Source: Candidatus Magnetominusculus dajiuhuensis (lineage in GTDB: Bacteria > Nitrospirota > Thermodesulfovibrionia > Thermodesulfovibrionales > Magnetobacteriaceae). From it: DNA of 64,000 nucleotides. The stretch spans positions 1 to 64,000 of the forward strand of contig JADFXP010000007.1 of the NCBI GenBank assembly GCA_015233465.1, written 5' to 3'. Shown piece by piece: positions 679 through 17,682 of the stretch. Position 1 is the first letter of the stretch. Each line of letters starts with the position of its first letter. Both the position numbers and the translations under genes were made by a program. Below the pieces are notes generated by a model. That model did no database searches. It had not been told where the DNA came from and was given only the letters and a program-made list of their open reading frames with translations.

Positions 679-1470
679 ATGAAAAGAATATTTAAACCAT
701 TAGAAATTGTTGGTAAAACTCTTATTGCATTCATAACTGAATTTGGATGCATATCCATGCTTTTATATAATTCTCTTAGATTGATGTTTATACCTCCGTT
801 TGAGTTTAGAATGATCTTTGCCCAGATGTATGAGGTTGGGACTAAATCTTTTCCAGTTGTATTCATAACCGCAATATTTTCTGGTATGGTGCTTGCCTTA
901 CAGACTCTAACTGGTTTTAAATTTATAGCTCAAGTAGGGGCGCAGAGTCTTGTCGGCACTGTTGTTGCCCTATCCATTACAAGAGAACTAGCACCTGTGC
1001 TTACTGGGTTAATTGTAGCAGGCAGGGCTGGGGCTGCAATGGCTGCTGAACTTGGCACTATGAAGGTCTCTGAAGAGATTGATGCCCTTGAAACACTTGC
1101 CACAAATCCTATCAAATATCTTATAATTCCTAGATTAATTGCAGGCGTGGTGATGCTTCCTACTCTTACAATTCTCGCAGATTTTGTCGGAATATTGGGC
1201 GGGTTTTTTGTATCTGTTTATATCTTTGACGCAAGTTCCGTAGGTTATTGGAATCGCACATGGGATTATCTTGAGATAAAGGATATAACGGACGGCTTGA
1301 TAAAGGCGTGCTTTTTTGGCGCTTCAATTTCAATAGTTAGCTGTTATAAGGGATTTTATACAACAGGCGGGGCAAAAGGCGTTGGACAGGCAACTACTGG
1401 CGCTGTAGTGCTTTCATCTATGGCAATATTAGTCTCTGATTATTTTATATCAGTGATATTAGCAAGTTAA
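679..1470 (+). CDS. mlaE: MlaE-family ABC permease (lipid transport)
   Basis: A 263-aa integral inner-membrane protein, the normal length for MlaE/YrbE permeases. It has several hydrophobic spans and the family core near residues 105-130 (ELAPVLTGLIVAGRAGAAMA, then AAELGTMKVSEEIDAL), which couples to the ATPase. With MlaF and MlaD it would form the inner-membrane complex that moves phospholipids between membranes. The mlaF start follows the stop by 1 nt and mlaD follows mlaF by 2 nt, so the three form one operon. No mlaA, mlaB or mlaC is present nearby. No clear Shine-Dalgarno precedes the ATG. Confidence 0.93.
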   Translation: MKRIFKPLEIVGKTLIAFITEFGCISMLLYNSLRLMFIPPFEFRMIFAQMYEVGTKSFPVVFITAIFSGMVLALQTLTGFKFIAQVGAQSLVGTVVALSITRELAPVLTGLIVAGRAGAAMAAELGTMKVSEEIDALETLATNPIKYLIIPRLIAGVVMLPTLTILADFVGILGGFFVSVYIFDASSVGYWNRTWDYLEIKDITDGLIKACFFGASISIVSCYKGFYTTGGAKGVGQATTGAVVLSSMAILVSDYFISVILAS

Positions 1471-1471
1471 A

Positions 1472-2224
1472 ATGATAACATTAACTGATTTATATAAGGC
1501 ATTCGGCACTAAACGTGTTTTACAAGGAGCAACTCTTCAGATAGAGCAAGGCGAAAGCATGGTAATAATTGGCGGCAGCGGTTCAGGGAAAAGCGTATTA
1601 ATAAAACATATTATAGGACTACTTGCACCTGACAGCGGAAGCGTTAAGGTTGAAGGGCAAGAGGTTACAACCTTAAAAGAAAAAGAATTATATAAGATGC
1701 GCAGAAAATTCGGTATGCTTTTTCAAAATGCTGCGCTATTTGATTCTCTAAAGGTTTGGGAAAATGTCGCATTTACACTTTTACGGCAGAAAAAAACCTC
1801 TCTTGTTAAAGCAAGGGAAACGGCTACTGAAAAGCTGCGTCTAGTTGGGCTTAAGGATATTGAAGACCTTATGCCTTCTGAACTTTCAGGAGGTATGCGT
1901 AAAAGAGTCGGTCTGGCAAGGGCTATTGCTCATAACCCTGAGTTTATACTATATGATGAACCAACAACAGGGCTTGATCCTATAATGGCAGATGTAATTA
2001 ATGAACTTATCATAGAATTAAAGCAAAAATTAAAGGTAACTTCTGTTACAATAACTCATGATATGGTAAGCGCATATAAAATAGCAGATAGAATAGCAAT
2101 GTTATATAAAGGAAAGATAATTGGTATAGGAACCCCTGAAGAGATTAAAAATACTTCTAATCCAGTTATAAAACAATTTATAACCGGCAATGCCATAGGG
2201 CCTATAACAGCAGAGGGAGCATAA
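1472..2224 (+). CDS. mlaF: MlaF-family ABC ATPase
   Basis: A 250-aa cytoplasmic ATPase. Walker A is GGSGSGKS at residues 34-41, the ABC signature LSGGMRKR lies near 138-145, Walker B FILYDEPTTG near 159-168, and the H-loop follows in TITHDM. The KRVGLARAIAHNPE stretch is typical of the MlaF/Ttg2A subgroup. It powers the MlaE permease, and its position between mlaE and mlaD supports the assignment. The C-terminal region past the H-loop has the usual short tail with TGNAIGPIT; no defect is visible. Confidence 0.93.
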   Translation: MITLTDLYKAFGTKRVLQGATLQIEQGESMVIIGGSGSGKSVLIKHIIGLLAPDSGSVKVEGQEVTTLKEKELYKMRRKFGMLFQNAALFDSLKVWENVAFTLLRQKKTSLVKARETATEKLRLVGLKDIEDLMPSELSGGMRKRVGLARAIAHNPEFILYDEPTTGLDPIMADVINELIIELKQKLKVTSVTITHDMVSAYKIADRIAMLYKGKIIGIGTPEEIKNTSNPVIKQFITGNAIGPITAEGA

Positions 2225-2226
2225 TT

Positions 2227-3681
2227 GTGAAGGGATTTACAACAGAACTTAAAGTGGGGGCATTTGTGCTAGCGGCATTGGTTGCCGCAGGGTTTATGAC
2301 AATGAAGACTGGTAAGACCTTTTGGTATAAAAAGGCTGGATATAATGTTTATACATATTTTTCAGATATTTCAGGGCTTGATAAAAAGACAAAGGTCAAG
2401 ATTGCTGGCGTTGATGTTGGAGTGATTGAAGATATAACATTAGAAGGAGACAGAGCTAAGGTCAAGATTCGTCTCAATCCAGAGGTTATAATCTATGAAG
2501 ACGCTGTTGCAGGGATTAAGGCAACAGGACTTATGGGTGATAAGGCCCTTGAGATTCAACCCGGAAGCTCTGGTAACGTGATTAAAGAGGGCGGATTCAT
2601 TAGAAATAATAAGGAATCATTTGATATGGATAATCTTGCCTTAAAGATGGGCACGCTTGCTGATGGACTTCAGAATCTTATAAGCAATGTGAATAGTTTG
2701 GTGGGATCTGAAGACACCAAAAAAATGGTCCTTGAGATTCTGAAAAACGTATCAGAATTAACAACAAATCTTAAAACAGTCATTTCATCTAATGATCAGC
2801 GTTTTGGTGATACGCTTAAAAGTATAAACGAGTTGTCTAATTCAGTAAATCAGCTTTTACATGATGAAAAAGGCGATATAAATCAGACAATTGCTAATTT
2901 ACGTGATGTAAGTAAAGCGCTCAAAGAATTTAGCGATAAAAATGCCCAAAAGCTAAACACTATTACAGATAATGCAGATAAAACCCTTACTTCAGTAAGC
3001 AAGATGACGGATAAGATTGAAAAAGGTCAAGGCACTCTTGGCAAGATGGTTAATGATGATACACTTTATAATTCTATAAATAATACTGCTAAGAAGGTCG
3101 AAGAGATGGTTCAAAAGGTTGACCGCGTTCAGACATTTGTAGGTTTAAGGGGCGAATATTTAACTAATCCAAACTCATATAGGGGTAATTTTGATGTAAC
3201 TTTAATGCCTAACCCTGATAAGTATTACATCTTAGGAGTAGCTTCAAGCCCAGTTGGAATTGTCTCTACTACACAGAAAAATGTTACAACTACAAGTGGA
3301 CAAGTTTTTGGCTTTACGGAAAGATCTGTTGAGCAAAAATTTACATTTAATGCTCAGTTTGCAAGAAAATACAATGATACAGTCTTAAGATTTGGACTTA
3401 CCGAAAATACATTTGGTTTAGGGGCAGACCAATTTATATTAAATAATAATGTAAAGCTGTCAGCTGACATTTGGGATTTTGGCAATACAGAGGTAAATTC
3501 AAGCTATCCCCATATAAAGCTGGGAGCTGATTATTTTTTTTATAAGAAATTTTTTGTCACAGTTGGTGCGGATAATTTACTTAATCATTCATGGTCAGGT
3601 GCGTTTATTGGCGGAGGATTTACGCTTGAGGATAGTGATCTAAAATATCTCTTTGGTGTACTTCCAAGAATCTCTCCTTAA
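2227..3681 (+). CDS. mlaD: MCE-domain lipid transport protein with C-terminal barrel-like domain (MlaD)
   Basis: A 484-aa protein starting at GTG, far longer than the roughly 180-aa MlaD of E. coli. Order: one N-terminal membrane span (about 8-27), an MCE domain (about 35-120; GLDKKTKVKIAGVDVGVIED and GIKATGLMGDKALEI are typical), a long Asn/Lys/Thr-rich helical stretch (about 130-300), then a region of alternating hydrophobic strands with aromatic ends (about 305-484, e.g. DVTLMPNPDKYYILGVA, GADYFFYKKFFVTVGADNLL) that looks like an outer-membrane beta-barrel. The long form could bridge both membranes, as proposed for diderm Firmicutes MlaD. That would explain why no MlaC or MlaA gene is present. 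The barrel is inferred from strand pattern only. Confidence 0.88.
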   Translation: MKGFTTELKVGAFVLAALVAAGFMTMKTGKTFWYKKAGYNVYTYFSDISGLDKKTKVKIAGVDVGVIEDITLEGDRAKVKIRLNPEVIIYEDAVAGIKATGLMGDKALEIQPGSSGNVIKEGGFIRNNKESFDMDNLALKMGTLADGLQNLISNVNSLVGSEDTKKMVLEILKNVSELTTNLKTVISSNDQRFGDTLKSINELSNSVNQLLHDEKGDINQTIANLRDVSKALKEFSDKNAQKLNTITDNADKTLTSVSKMTDKIEKGQGTLGKMVNDDTLYNSINNTAKKVEEMVQKVDRVQTFVGLRGEYLTNPNSYRGNFDVTLMPNPDKYYILGVASSPVGIVSTTQKNVTTTSGQVFGFTERSVEQKFTFNAQFARKYNDTVLRFGLTENTFGLGADQFILNNNVKLSADIWDFGNTEVNSSYPHIKLGADYFFYKKFFVTVGADNLLNHSWSGAFIGGGFTLEDSDLKYLFGVLPRISP

Positions 3682-13769: not shown

Positions 13770-16273
13770 AAGATAGAGTAGATAAATTGGATATTCAAAA
13801 TATTGAGAAAAAATGGCAGAAATATTGGCAAAAGAATAAATTATTTGAAGTAAATAAAAATAAAGAGAAATTCTATTGTCTTGAGATGTTCCCATACCCT
13901 TCAGGTAAAATACATATGGGACACGTCCGAAACTATACCATCGGAGATGTCATCGCGCGTTATAAACGCATGAGAGGTTTTGATGTCCTTCACCCAATAG
14001 GCTGGGATTCATTCGGTCTGCCCGCTGAAAATGCAGCTATCTTAAATAAAGTCCACCCTGCAGTTTGGACTTACGAAAACATCGCATATATGAAAAAACA
14101 GCTCATGGCTATGGGCTTTAGCTACGATTTCACCCGCGAAGTCACCACATGCAGCCCAGAATATTATAAATGGAATCAATGGTTTTTCCTTAAAATGTAT
14201 GAATTAGGTCTCGCCTATAGAAAATCCTCTATGGTCAATTGGTGTAATGACTGCGCAACAGTCCTTGCCAACGAACAGGTTATTGACGGGCAGTGCTGGA
14301 GATGCGGGAATGTGGTCGTTCAAAAAGAACTTGAACAATGGTTTTTTAAAATAACTAATTACGCTGAAGAATTATTAACTGGCTGCGATACCCTTATAGG
14401 ATGGCCTGAACATGTAGTATCTATGCAGAAAAATTGGATAGGCAAAAGTATTGGCACAGAAGTGGATTTTCCTATTTTTGAATCTAATGAAAGATTAAGG
14501 ATTTTCACTACAAGACCAGATACAATATTTGGCGCAACATTTATGTGTATAGCTCCAACCCATCCCCTTGCCTCTCAATTTTTAGGCAATAATTCAGAGT
14601 TGAAGGGTTTAATAGATAATTATGGAAAGATAGATGATAAAATTGGAATCTTTACAGAACACTTTGCGATAAATCCTCTAAGTGAAGAAAACATACCAAT
14701 ATTCGTTGCTAATTTTGTGCTAATGGAATACGGCACTGGCGCTATAATGAGCGTCCCTGCACATGATGAGAGGGATTTTGAATTTGCCCGCAAATATGGG
14801 CTTGCAGTCAGGCAGGTTATTATCCCTAAGGATGTACAAGTTGATGATATACTTACCAATGCCTATATAGGCGAGGGCGTTTTGGTTAAATCTAAACAAT
14901 TTAATAATCTATTTAATATAGAGGCAATTGAGGCAATCTCTAAATATATTGAAGAAAAAGGGATAGGCAAGAGAGTTGTAAATTATAAACTAAGAGATTG
15001 GGGGATTTCCAGACAGCGTTATTGGGGATGTCCGATTCCTATAGTTTATTGTAAGACCTGCGGCGTTGTTCCTGTCCCAGAAAATGAGCTTCCAGTAGTT
15101 CTTCCTGAAGATATAGAATTTAGCGGAGGCAGTGTTTCGCCCCTTGCACAAGTAGAGTCATTTTGTCGTGTGAAGTGTCCAAGATGCGGGGCTGATGGCC
15201 GCAGAGAGACTGATACTATGGATACATTTGTAGATTCTTCATGGTATTTTATACGTTATTGTTCAACTAAGGAAGAAGATGCCCTTGATAAAGAAAATAT
15301 CAAGCGTTTTATGCCAGTAGATCAATATATTGGCGGGGTTGAACATGCGGTACTGCATTTATTATATTCGAGGTTTTTTACAAGGGTTCTGAGGGATATT
15401 GGGGTAGTGGATTTTGATGAGCCGTTTAGACGTTTGCTTACCCAAGGTATGGTTTGTAAGGAAACCCTAAAATGTCCAGAGCATGGATGGTTATTCACTG
15501 ATGAAGTTAAAGAGGATAAATGTATTCATTGTGGTAAAGAAGTTTTAAAAGGGCGTACTGAAAAGATGTCCAAATCTAAAAAAAATGTTATTGATCCAAA
15601 TGTTTTAATAAATAAATATGGAGCGGATACTATAAGGCTTTTTTCATTATTTGCAGCGCCTCCTGAGAAGGACTTAGAGTGGTCTGATCAAGGGGTAGAG
15701 GGTGCGAGCAGGTTTTTGAATAGGTTATGGAATTTAGTAGAGACTAATGTTGATACTCTTAAAAAAACGGATATAAAGGGGTTTAGAGGTAATTCTGGAT
15801 TATTTAAAAAGACGCATCAGACGATAATGAAGGTAACGGAGTCAATAGAGCGTGATTATCATTTTAATACAGCGATAGCAGCGATGATGGAGTTATTAAA
15901 TGAGATGACTGGGCTGCAGCATGATGATAAATCACTAAAATTTGCAGTAAGGGCGATGATTTTATTATTAAGTCCATTTGCTCCGCATATTGCTGAGGAG
16001 TTATGGGAGGTATCTGGTGCGGAGAGGGGAATATCTAAGCAAAGTTGGCCAGAATATGACAAAGAGGCAGCAAAAGAGGATGAGATTGAATTAGTAGTGC
16101 AGATAAATGGAAAGGTTAGGTCAAAGATAATGGTTGATGTTGGGTTAAATGATGACCAGATAAAGGGTATCGCATTATCTGATGAAAGGGTAATATCGTT
16201 TATAGGGAGTAGTGTGGTTAAAAAAATAATTGTGGTAAAGGGCAAGTTAATTAATATAGTGGTGACCAATTGA
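13754..16273 (+). CDS. leuS: Leucyl-tRNA synthetase
   Basis: An 839-aa class I aminoacyl-tRNA synthetase. The HIGH-type motif is HMGH (in [12 protein letters not shown], near residue 55) and the KMSKS motif is in [10 protein letters not shown] near residue 610. The editing domain and C-terminal [10 protein letters not shown] segment are present, and a Cys-rich zinc-type insert ([13 protein letters not shown]) is visible. The longest frame starts at TTG 13754 within a family A repeat; a start at the second TTG (13787, [10 protein letters not shown]) would give a more typical N-terminus. The stop overlaps the lptE start as TTGA. Confidence 0.95.
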
Positions 16274-16806
16274 TTTTTATAAAAGGGTCAAGGGGACGAG
16301 TCCCCTTGCGGGTCAAGGGCAGAGCCCTTGTAATAATCCTTTTAGCATTATCTATAATTTCCTGTGGCTACACAATAGCTAGCAGGGCATCGTTGTCAAT
16401 TGATTCTATTAAGATTGGTAAGATTATAAATAAGACGAGTGAGCCGTCTTTGCAGGACATGTTGAATATAGCGCTTGTAGATGAGTTTCAGAGGCGCGGG
16501 GTGAAGGTGACGGACAGCTCGGATAATATTATAGATGCTGATATAATCAGTTATAAACTTGATTTATTATCTGAGAAGAAGGAGCTTGGTTTAGAATATC
16601 AAACGAATATAAAGGTTGATTTCAGGGTGAGGTGTAATGGAGAGGATAGGGAATATAGAGGGGTGACGTCTCCTTCGATAGATTATTTTGCAGGGCAGAG
16701 TGCTTTAAATTCAACTGCTGCGCATAAGCAGTTATCTGATAAGCAGGCGATGGATGGAATTGCCTTTTTTATAGTAACGCAATTAGCGTTGAATAGTCCT
16801 AAATGA
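16270..16806 (+). CDS. lptE: LptE-like lipoprotein for LPS export
   Basis: A 178-aa lipoprotein directly after leuS, the place where lptE sits in many Gram-negative genomes. A hydrophobic signal ([17 protein letters not shown]) ends in a lipobox with Cys near residue 32. The mature part has the LptE pattern ([20 protein letters not shown], then [16 protein letters not shown]). It would partner LptD in inserting lipopolysaccharide into the outer membrane. The N-terminal stretch [14 protein letters not shown] is encoded by a family A repeat, so the repeat has become the charged start of the signal peptide. TTG at 16306 is an alternative, also inside the repeat. Confidence 0.8.
16285..16330 (+). 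repeat. Family A palindromic repeat, copy 5 (forward, inside lptE)
   Basis: GGGTCAAGGGGACGAGTCCC then CTTGCGGGTCAAGGGCAGAG and CCCTT. The whole copy is read in frame as codons of the lptE signal peptide. Stems are AAGGGGAC/GTCCCCTT and AAGGGC/GCCCTT. Confidence 0.9.
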
Positions 16807-16811
16807 TAATT

Positions 16812-17522
16812 TTATTTAAAGACGTAAACTATACTTACAGATGGGATCAGATTAATTGAACCTTTTGGGAAGTAAACAAAATTATCATTATTTGTTGGGG
16901 TATTCATATTTTGGGTAATTATATCATTGAATATAAAGGTTCTTAAATAAGCGCCAACTGTAATCATAATAGAAGAAACATTAAACGCAACGCCGCCTCC
17001 GATATTCAACCCCAAACCATAGAAACTCATATTTTGAAAAAATGCTGTATATGCGTTTTGGTCTAGTGATAACCATGGAAATGATAATCCAAATTGAAAA
17101 AATGGTTGAATTGCAGAATTTGGCATTAAATAATATCTACCGTCGAGACTAATAATTCTATATTCAGCTAATGTATGATTTTTAAAAACTCCGTTGATGT
17201 GACTATAGGCATCATGAGTGGAAGAAAGATAACAAAATTCAAGGCTTACATTATCATTTCTGACTCCGCCAGTAAATCCATACGCAAAAGCATTTTTAAG
17301 ATATGGGAAAACTGGAGTAATCGTTTGGGTCAATTTAGAACCTTGTTGAGCTATTGAGACATTTGTTCCATTGAAATCTCCAGAAAGAGAATTATAAGCT
17401 GCAACTGGACCTAAAAAAAATGTATATTTATCTTCAAGCTCATCTGCCAAAGCTGTGCTGCAAAGGCATAATATCATCATCATTACAAATATTTTGATTA
17501 GTCCAAGTTTTTTTAATAACAT
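16812..17522 (-). CDS. Outer-membrane beta-barrel protein, function unknown
   Basis: About 236 aa from the ATG at 17522, chosen because a perfect AGGAGG lies 6 nt before it; the frame extends upstream to 17543. A signal peptide (KIFVMMMILCLCSTALA) is followed by strands with alternating polarity (e.g. NVSLEFCYLSSTHDAYSH, PFFQFGLSFPWLSL, GLGLNIGGGVAFNVSS) and ends in SIVYVFK with a terminal aromatic pattern. This resembles small 8-strand outer-membrane barrels of the OmpA/OmpW size class. I recognise no specific family. The gene runs convergently with lptE, with a 5-nt gap. Confidence 0.7.
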   Translation of the reverse strand: MLLKKLGLIKIFVMMMILCLCSTALADELEDKYTFFLGPVAAYNSLSGDFNGTNVSIAQQGSKLTQTITPVFPYLKNAFAYGFTGGVRNDNVSLEFCYLSSTHDAYSHINGVFKNHTLAEYRIISLDGRYYLMPNSAIQPFFQFGLSFPWLSLDQNAYTAFFQNMSFYGLGLNIGGGVAFNVSSIMITVGAYLRTFIFNDIITQNMNTPTNNDNFVYFPKGSINLIPSVSIVYVFK

Positions 17523-17682
17523 CAATTCCCTCCTGAGTTTCAAAAAAAATCTATAATTAGAACTCTAAAATTTGTTCTCAATATTCAAGTATACATTGAT
17601 TAATATGAAATTGTAAACTAGTTGAGATAATTATTCAATCAATATAATATATTGCAGATTAAAATATAAAGGATTTAGTTAA

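Follow-up and report, generated by a model that had tools for sequence, protein, structure and literature searches.

The window analysed here is a stretch of 64,000 nucleotides from a genome of the phylum Nitrospirota, order Thermodesulfovibrionales, whose assembly is 92.5% complete and spread over 75 contigs. Near its beginning, positions 679-3681 hold a tight plus-strand operon, mlaE-mlaF-mlaD, with gaps of 1-2 bp between the genes. These genes, the parts of MlaD and an lptE gene found further downstream are as follows.

679..1470, + strand: mlaE, permease, 263 aa (Pfam MlaE, E 6e-81; TIGR00056 above cut-off)
1472..2224, + strand: mlaF, ABC ATPase, 250 aa (Pfam ABC_tran, E 2e-34)
2227..3681, + strand: mlaD, long form with predicted C-terminal barrel, 484 aa, GTG start (Pfam MlaD; AlphaFold2)
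2242..2313, + strand: N-terminal TM helix of MlaD, residues 6-29 (AlphaFold2 secondary structure)
2338..2565, + strand: MCE domain, residues 38-113 (Pfam PF02470, E 1e-19; the full-length model matches solved MlaD chains)
2626..3111, + strand: helical linker, residues 134-295 (AlphaFold2 helices at low pLDDT; hydrophobic period 3.5)
3130..3630, + strand: predicted ten-stranded outer-membrane barrel, residues 302-468 (AlphaFold2, fold matches, face conservation)
3631..3678, + strand: C-terminal tail, residues 469-484 (alignment; after the last strand)
16270-16806: lptE (PF04390, E 2.5e-9), overlapping the end of leuS, 12.6 kb downstream of mlaD

The window MlaF is 61-75% identical to the MlaF of relatives whose MlaD is of the barrel type, and 40-50% identical to MlaF encoded beside a short MlaD. 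The gene downstream of the operon is rluD, and the contig begins 678 bp upstream of mlaE; in relatives, the barrel-type operon is usually preceded by a gene of about 370 aa, which is an alanine racemase in the two loci where it was named (L034, by Pfam; L043, by eye). At the contig end upstream of mlaE, the minus strand of positions 1-439 encodes an ORF that resembles the YafQ toxin below the Pfam cut-off, with a small ORF before it, the two possibly forming a toxin-antitoxin pair. A sequence-only reading of this DNA had pointed to an LptE gene near the operon. The gene is real, but it is a mere neighbour of leuS lying 12.6 kb away, and we rejected it as a member of the mla locus. It is adjoined by a 243-aa ORF (16812-17543, minus strand) that by eye looks like a secreted beta-rich protein and whose Pfam match is sub-threshold only.

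Architecture of MlaD and its predicted barrel

The same reading had described MlaD as an MCE domain joined through a helical linker to a barrel-like C-terminus, and this domain order was recovered computationally, the MCE domain by Pfam, and the TM helix and a ten-stranded barrel, between residues 302 and 468, in a full-length AlphaFold2 model built from a 48-row alignment of the window protein and its relatives. The MCE domain, the single MCE stretch that Pfam detects in the protein, is modelled confidently (block pLDDT 85-93 over most of the domain), and helices are modelled over residues 134-240 of the linker at low confidence (block pLDDT 30-55). Over the whole linker (134-295), hydrophobicity is most strongly periodic at 3.5 residues, a heptad-like pattern with a periodicity of 1.26 versus 0.58 +/- 0.09 in shuffled sequences (0 of 500 as high), which would fit a coiled needle with a hydrophobic stripe. 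Five residues directly before the barrel (G267, G269, G272, L280 and Y281; MlaD 267-281, positions 3025-3069) are invariant and resemble a motif-like hinge. Beyond the MCE domain Pfam gave nothing above cut-off, only a sub-threshold CAP_assoc_N match. The protein scores 101 with the MlaD equivalog model TIGR04430 (cut-off 135) and 22 bits with the full PqiB model (cut-off 525); with its one MCE stretch it is no multi-MCE protein of the PqiB/LetB kind. Relatives that match over the full length or over the C-terminus, at 37-48% identity, were found in 15 of 39 other genomes searched, and a profile of the barrel matches 63 of the 129 genomes of the order, a recurrence that suggests more than chance for the architecture as read from sequence.

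Modelled alone (the C-terminal 189 residues, with 70 relatives), the barrel reached a mean pLDDT of 81.7 and a pTM of 0.72, with strand blocks up to 96. A Foldseek search of the PDB returned as top match a designed ten-strand transmembrane barrel (8uzl, E 6.8e-4), followed mostly by outer-membrane barrels. Realignment ranked OpcA first (Z 17.3; rmsd 2.7 over 142 aligned residues), ahead of a Legionella porin (15.2), Pla (15.0) and TMB10 (14.2); among soluble barrels, nitrobindin and its like came to Z about 11-12 at best. In the strand list of the AlphaFold2 model, the strands are joined by short turns at the end where the two termini lie and mostly by longer ones at the opposite end. The barrel profile gave nothing convincing against the sequences of solved structures (best E 0.24), and a plasmid search with the barrel sequence gave no match.

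Alternation of residues along the strands was rejected as proof of a membrane barrel, as the soluble MCE domain alternates as strongly; because alternation fails to discriminate, we compared instead the conservation of the two faces, omitting 1 of 10 barrel stretches and 1 of 7 MCE stretches in which the faces differ by less than 0.2, as well as the outer half of the long hairpin of the barrel (345-369). The more variable face of the barrel is the hydrophobic one (1.35 bits over 44 positions versus 0.78 bits over 46 positions for the polar/glycine face, p = 9e-4), and the MCE domain shows the reverse (0.91 bits over 22 positions versus 1.46 over 23, p = 0.016). A variable hydrophobic face and a conserved polar/glycine face are what is expected where the outside faces lipid and the polar lumen is fixed, and on this membrane-type pattern and the models we predict that the C-terminus of MlaD is an outer-membrane barrel. 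Because the residues presumed to line the lumen are polar and conserved, the passage of lipid through a single monomer barrel would be unlikely. In the tail that follows the last strand, residues D469, D471, K473 and Y474 are invariant in the 48 rows.

Outer-membrane ends across the order

The operon holds neither MlaC nor MlaA, as had been noted from its sequence, and a search of the whole genome for MlaC (PF05494) and MlaA (PF04333) gave no match at E<=0.001 in the 92.5% complete assembly, the E. coli and Caulobacter controls both being matched. An E. coli type set of a short MlaD with MlaC and MlaA was not found in the host genome either. The two findings that the sequence-only reading had named as speaking against it, a model without a barrel and separate mlaA and mlaC genes elsewhere, thus did not materialise. 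We extended the survey to all 129 genomes of the order offered at a completeness of at least 90%, in which barrel MlaD totals 63, MlaC 87 and MlaA 55 genomes, in the following combinations.

Barrel alone (no MlaA, no MlaC): 37/129 genomes
Barrel + MlaC + MlaA: 18/129 genomes
Barrel + MlaC, no MlaA: 7/129 genomes
Barrel + MlaA, no MlaC: 1/129 genomes
MlaC + MlaA, no barrel: 36/129 genomes
MlaC alone: 26/129 genomes
None of barrel, MlaC, MlaA: 4/129 genomes

MlaC is present in 25 of the 63 barrel genomes versus 62 of the 66 others (odds ratio 0.04, p = 2e-11); the avoidance of MlaA is weaker (odds ratio 0.36, p = 0.007, 129 genomes). Kinship was handled by pooling per genus only, which over 75 genera gave 19/43 versus 30/32 for MlaC (odds ratio 0.05, p = 5e-6) and an odds ratio of 0.32 (p = 0.02) for MlaA. 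The barrel in place of MlaA and MlaC is thus a strong tendency and no rule, with 18/129 genomes holding all three. This pattern of two systems that are mostly exclusive, yet together in these 18 genomes, is in our opinion the main value of the finding, along with the three kinds of outer-membrane end described next. In the phylum as a whole, the barrel profile matches 132 of 378 genomes, each at least 90% complete.

The comparison of 40 loci around the mla genes of the order revealed a further candidate for the outer-membrane end. An ORF of the TolC family (OEP) lies in the mla operon of 24 of the 26 genomes with MlaC and with neither MlaA nor barrel, and of all 7 genomes with barrel and MlaC and no MlaA. 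Its slot is between the short mlaD and mlaC, or before mlaC where mlaD is off the contig (L121-L154; genomes G026, G029, G038 and others), and it was called by similarity to the ORFs of L022 and L027 (PF02321, E 1e-30); in G035 the ORF is partial, at a contig edge. The pattern is broken by G040, whose MlaC is near a contig start, and by G057, which has no such ORF. None of the 6 MlaA-positive loci examined carries an OEP ORF, and in G023 MlaA sits in the slot otherwise held by it. Three outer-membrane ends therefore occur in one order: MlaA, a TolC-family protein and the barrel of MlaD itself. A short MlaD (146-161 aa) is present in 37 of the 40 loci; its wide occurrence in the order goes against PMC10665443, which confines the short, E. 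coli-like MlaD to Proteobacteria.

In a tree of MlaE+MlaF (88 rows, some genomes present twice), barrel loci and short-MlaD loci separate into two deep, fully supported clades. The window pair belongs to the barrel clade, where its branch is long (0.69) and its placement unsure. Of the 12 genomes of the host's own family with a completeness of at least 90%, the host alone has the barrel. Horizontal transfer of the window operon was considered and is unsupported: MlaE and MlaF share 59-75% identity with their counterparts in barrel-type relatives, about as much as LeuS does across the order (60-69%), so that vertical descent with loss elsewhere would suffice; LeuS fails to separate the host's family from the other members of the order. 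A stop codon lies within the barrel profile match in three genomes of a single genus (G030, locus L016; G130; G131), which also have MlaA and MlaC; the protein of L016 stops right after the last strand, lacking the conserved tail.

A proposed bridge between the two membranes

The barrel-MlaD design itself is known from Veillonella; what we add is the order-wide comparison of outer-membrane ends. In V. parvula, MlaD (419 aa) runs from a TM helix through a single MCE domain and about 150 residues of helical structure to a ten-stranded barrel, and a separate construct of this barrel was found in outer-membrane fractions (Grasekamp et al. 2023, PMC10665443). The likeness to a form in diderm Firmicutes, drawn earlier from the sequence, is a correct analogy: on every tested feature described in that paper the window locus is the same, with a TM helix, a single MCE domain, a long helical region, a predicted ten-stranded barrel, an mlaEFD cluster and no MlaA or MlaC, the agreement of the two barrels being one of strand number and domain order. 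The accompanying claim that the design's spread would be extended is less novel than it seemed, as PMC10665443 reports 103 barrel-bearing MlaD sequences across diderms and already terms the design widespread. Nitrospirota are unnamed in its main text, although its supplement may list them, and our literature search found no report of a Nitrospirota barrel MlaD or of a TolC-family gene inside an mla operon.

The window locus differs from that of V. parvula in the length of MlaD (484 versus 419 aa), in its Nitrospirota host, in the gene downstream (rluD versus tolC-tamB) and in the host's match to LptE, which V. parvula lacks according to PMC10665443. Among relatives of the host, in contrast to the V. 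parvula type, the barrel coexists with MlaA and MlaC (the 18/129 genomes above). The same paper links the absence of MlaA to that of Lol; in the host, LolA is matched while MlaA is absent and MlaD is of the barrel type, which bears on this link.

We consider it fairly likely (a probability of about 0.7) that the window encodes a Veillonella-type long MlaD within a three-gene MlaEFD lipid ABC transporter that spans both membranes without MlaC or MlaA. By analogy with known families, the TM helices of MlaD would lie in the inner membrane alongside MlaE and MlaF, the MCE domains would assemble into a ring, the linkers would cross the periplasm as a helical needle that bears a hydrophobic stripe, and the ten-stranded barrels would insert into the outer membrane. 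Such a complex would move phospholipid between the membranes, most likely from the outer to the inner one, with neither MlaC nor MlaA; TamB, proposed as the opposing line in V. parvula, is present in the host genome. The working of a transenvelope needle is borrowed from the work of PMC10665443, from PqiB and from Mce1, and it is from these that we infer the bridging, the oligomeric state and the lipid passage of the window MlaD. The one-piece lipid bridge suggested earlier is in keeping with the absence of MlaA and MlaC, but the genome holds two other MCE systems (see below), and the 18 relatives combine the barrel with both proteins.

The barrel might instead serve only as the outer-membrane anchor of the needle, lipid entering at the membrane surface or via another outer-membrane protein. 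This we regard as possible, if somewhat doubtful, and it is a sub-version of the bridge, such that both can be true. The conserved polar/glycine face suggests a narrow, closed barrel, and PMC10665443 considers that of V. parvula too narrow for lipid, leaves anchoring possible and finds a barrel in only about 10% of MlaD sequences. On the other side, the barrel-less Mla systems of the order mostly carry a dedicated outer-membrane partner (MlaA or a TolC-family protein), which fits a barrel that is a functional end, although an anchor is still compatible with it. One might speculate further that MlaA, the TolC-family protein and the fused barrel are interchangeable, the barrel being a functional gate and not an anchor, and that species with both systems run separate lipid lines differing in cargo or direction; we put this forward tentatively. 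For the question of how phospholipids cross the periplasm outside Proteobacteria, an order whose related species exchange or combine three kinds of outer-membrane end on homologous pumps of the inner membrane offers a natural comparison for the role of the barrel.

A division of labour between the barrel system and the short-MlaD/MlaC system (by cargo or direction), with the window encoding an MCE transporter outside the Mla asymmetry pathway, is rather unlikely. The two deep, fully supported MlaE+MlaF clades and the retention of MlaC in 25 of the 63 barrel genomes, 18 of them with MlaA, argue for such a division, but the strong avoidance of MlaC (odds ratio 0.04) suggests a functional overlap, and mla mutants of V. 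parvula have asymmetry phenotypes (PMC10665443). A soluble, nitrobindin- or lipocalin-like periplasmic lipid-binding barrel within the needle tip is very improbable, since the Z of about 11-12 of nitrobindins and similar proteins is exceeded by outer-membrane barrels (Z 14-17), the conservation of the faces is opposite to that of the soluble MCE domain, and the strands are even in number, their connections being short turns at one end of the barrel and mostly longer loops at the opposite one. Equally improbable is an assembly gap hiding a normal MlaACDEF system: the genome is 92.5% complete in 75 contigs and 8 of the 11 other family members at a completeness of at least 90% have MlaA and MlaC, but the assembly would have to lack mlaA, mlaC and the short mlaD together with their mlaEF, and the site directly after recN (named by eye), occupied by mlaEFD(short)C in 3 of the 4 fetched family members (G008, G002, G005), is sequenced through on a 126-kb contig of the host, where an unrelated gene and no mla follows.

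Relation to other MCE systems

With the Mla system of E. coli (MlaFEDB, MlaC and MlaA-OmpC/F) the window locus shares MlaE, MlaF and the MCE domain, and differs from it in having no short MlaD, MlaC or MlaA. The succession of an MCE ring and long helices would recall the needles of mycobacterial Mce1 (8fed) and PqiB, and chain B of Mce1 is the top Foldseek match of the full MlaD model. Mce1 is, however, a heterohexamer and PqiB has three MCE domains, and for neither is a ten-stranded barrel per chain described (PMC10665443, PMC12436622).

Similarity also exists to Brucella Mpc, an MlaEF-type ABC transporter whose elongated MlaD-like protein has been proposed to extend as far as the outer membrane; MpcD has 331 aa and a helical C-terminal part, and was modelled with an outer-membrane partner (PMC12436622). 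The second MCE locus of the host (on C8), which encodes MlaE, MlaF, an MCE protein of 304 aa and then an ABC_trans_aux (PqiC-like) lipoprotein, resembles Brucella Mpc more than the window locus does. The third (on C73, at about 94.9 kb) encodes MlaE, an ATPase with a weak match (ABC_tran, E 2e-7) and an MCE protein of 321 aa, followed by a TPR protein.
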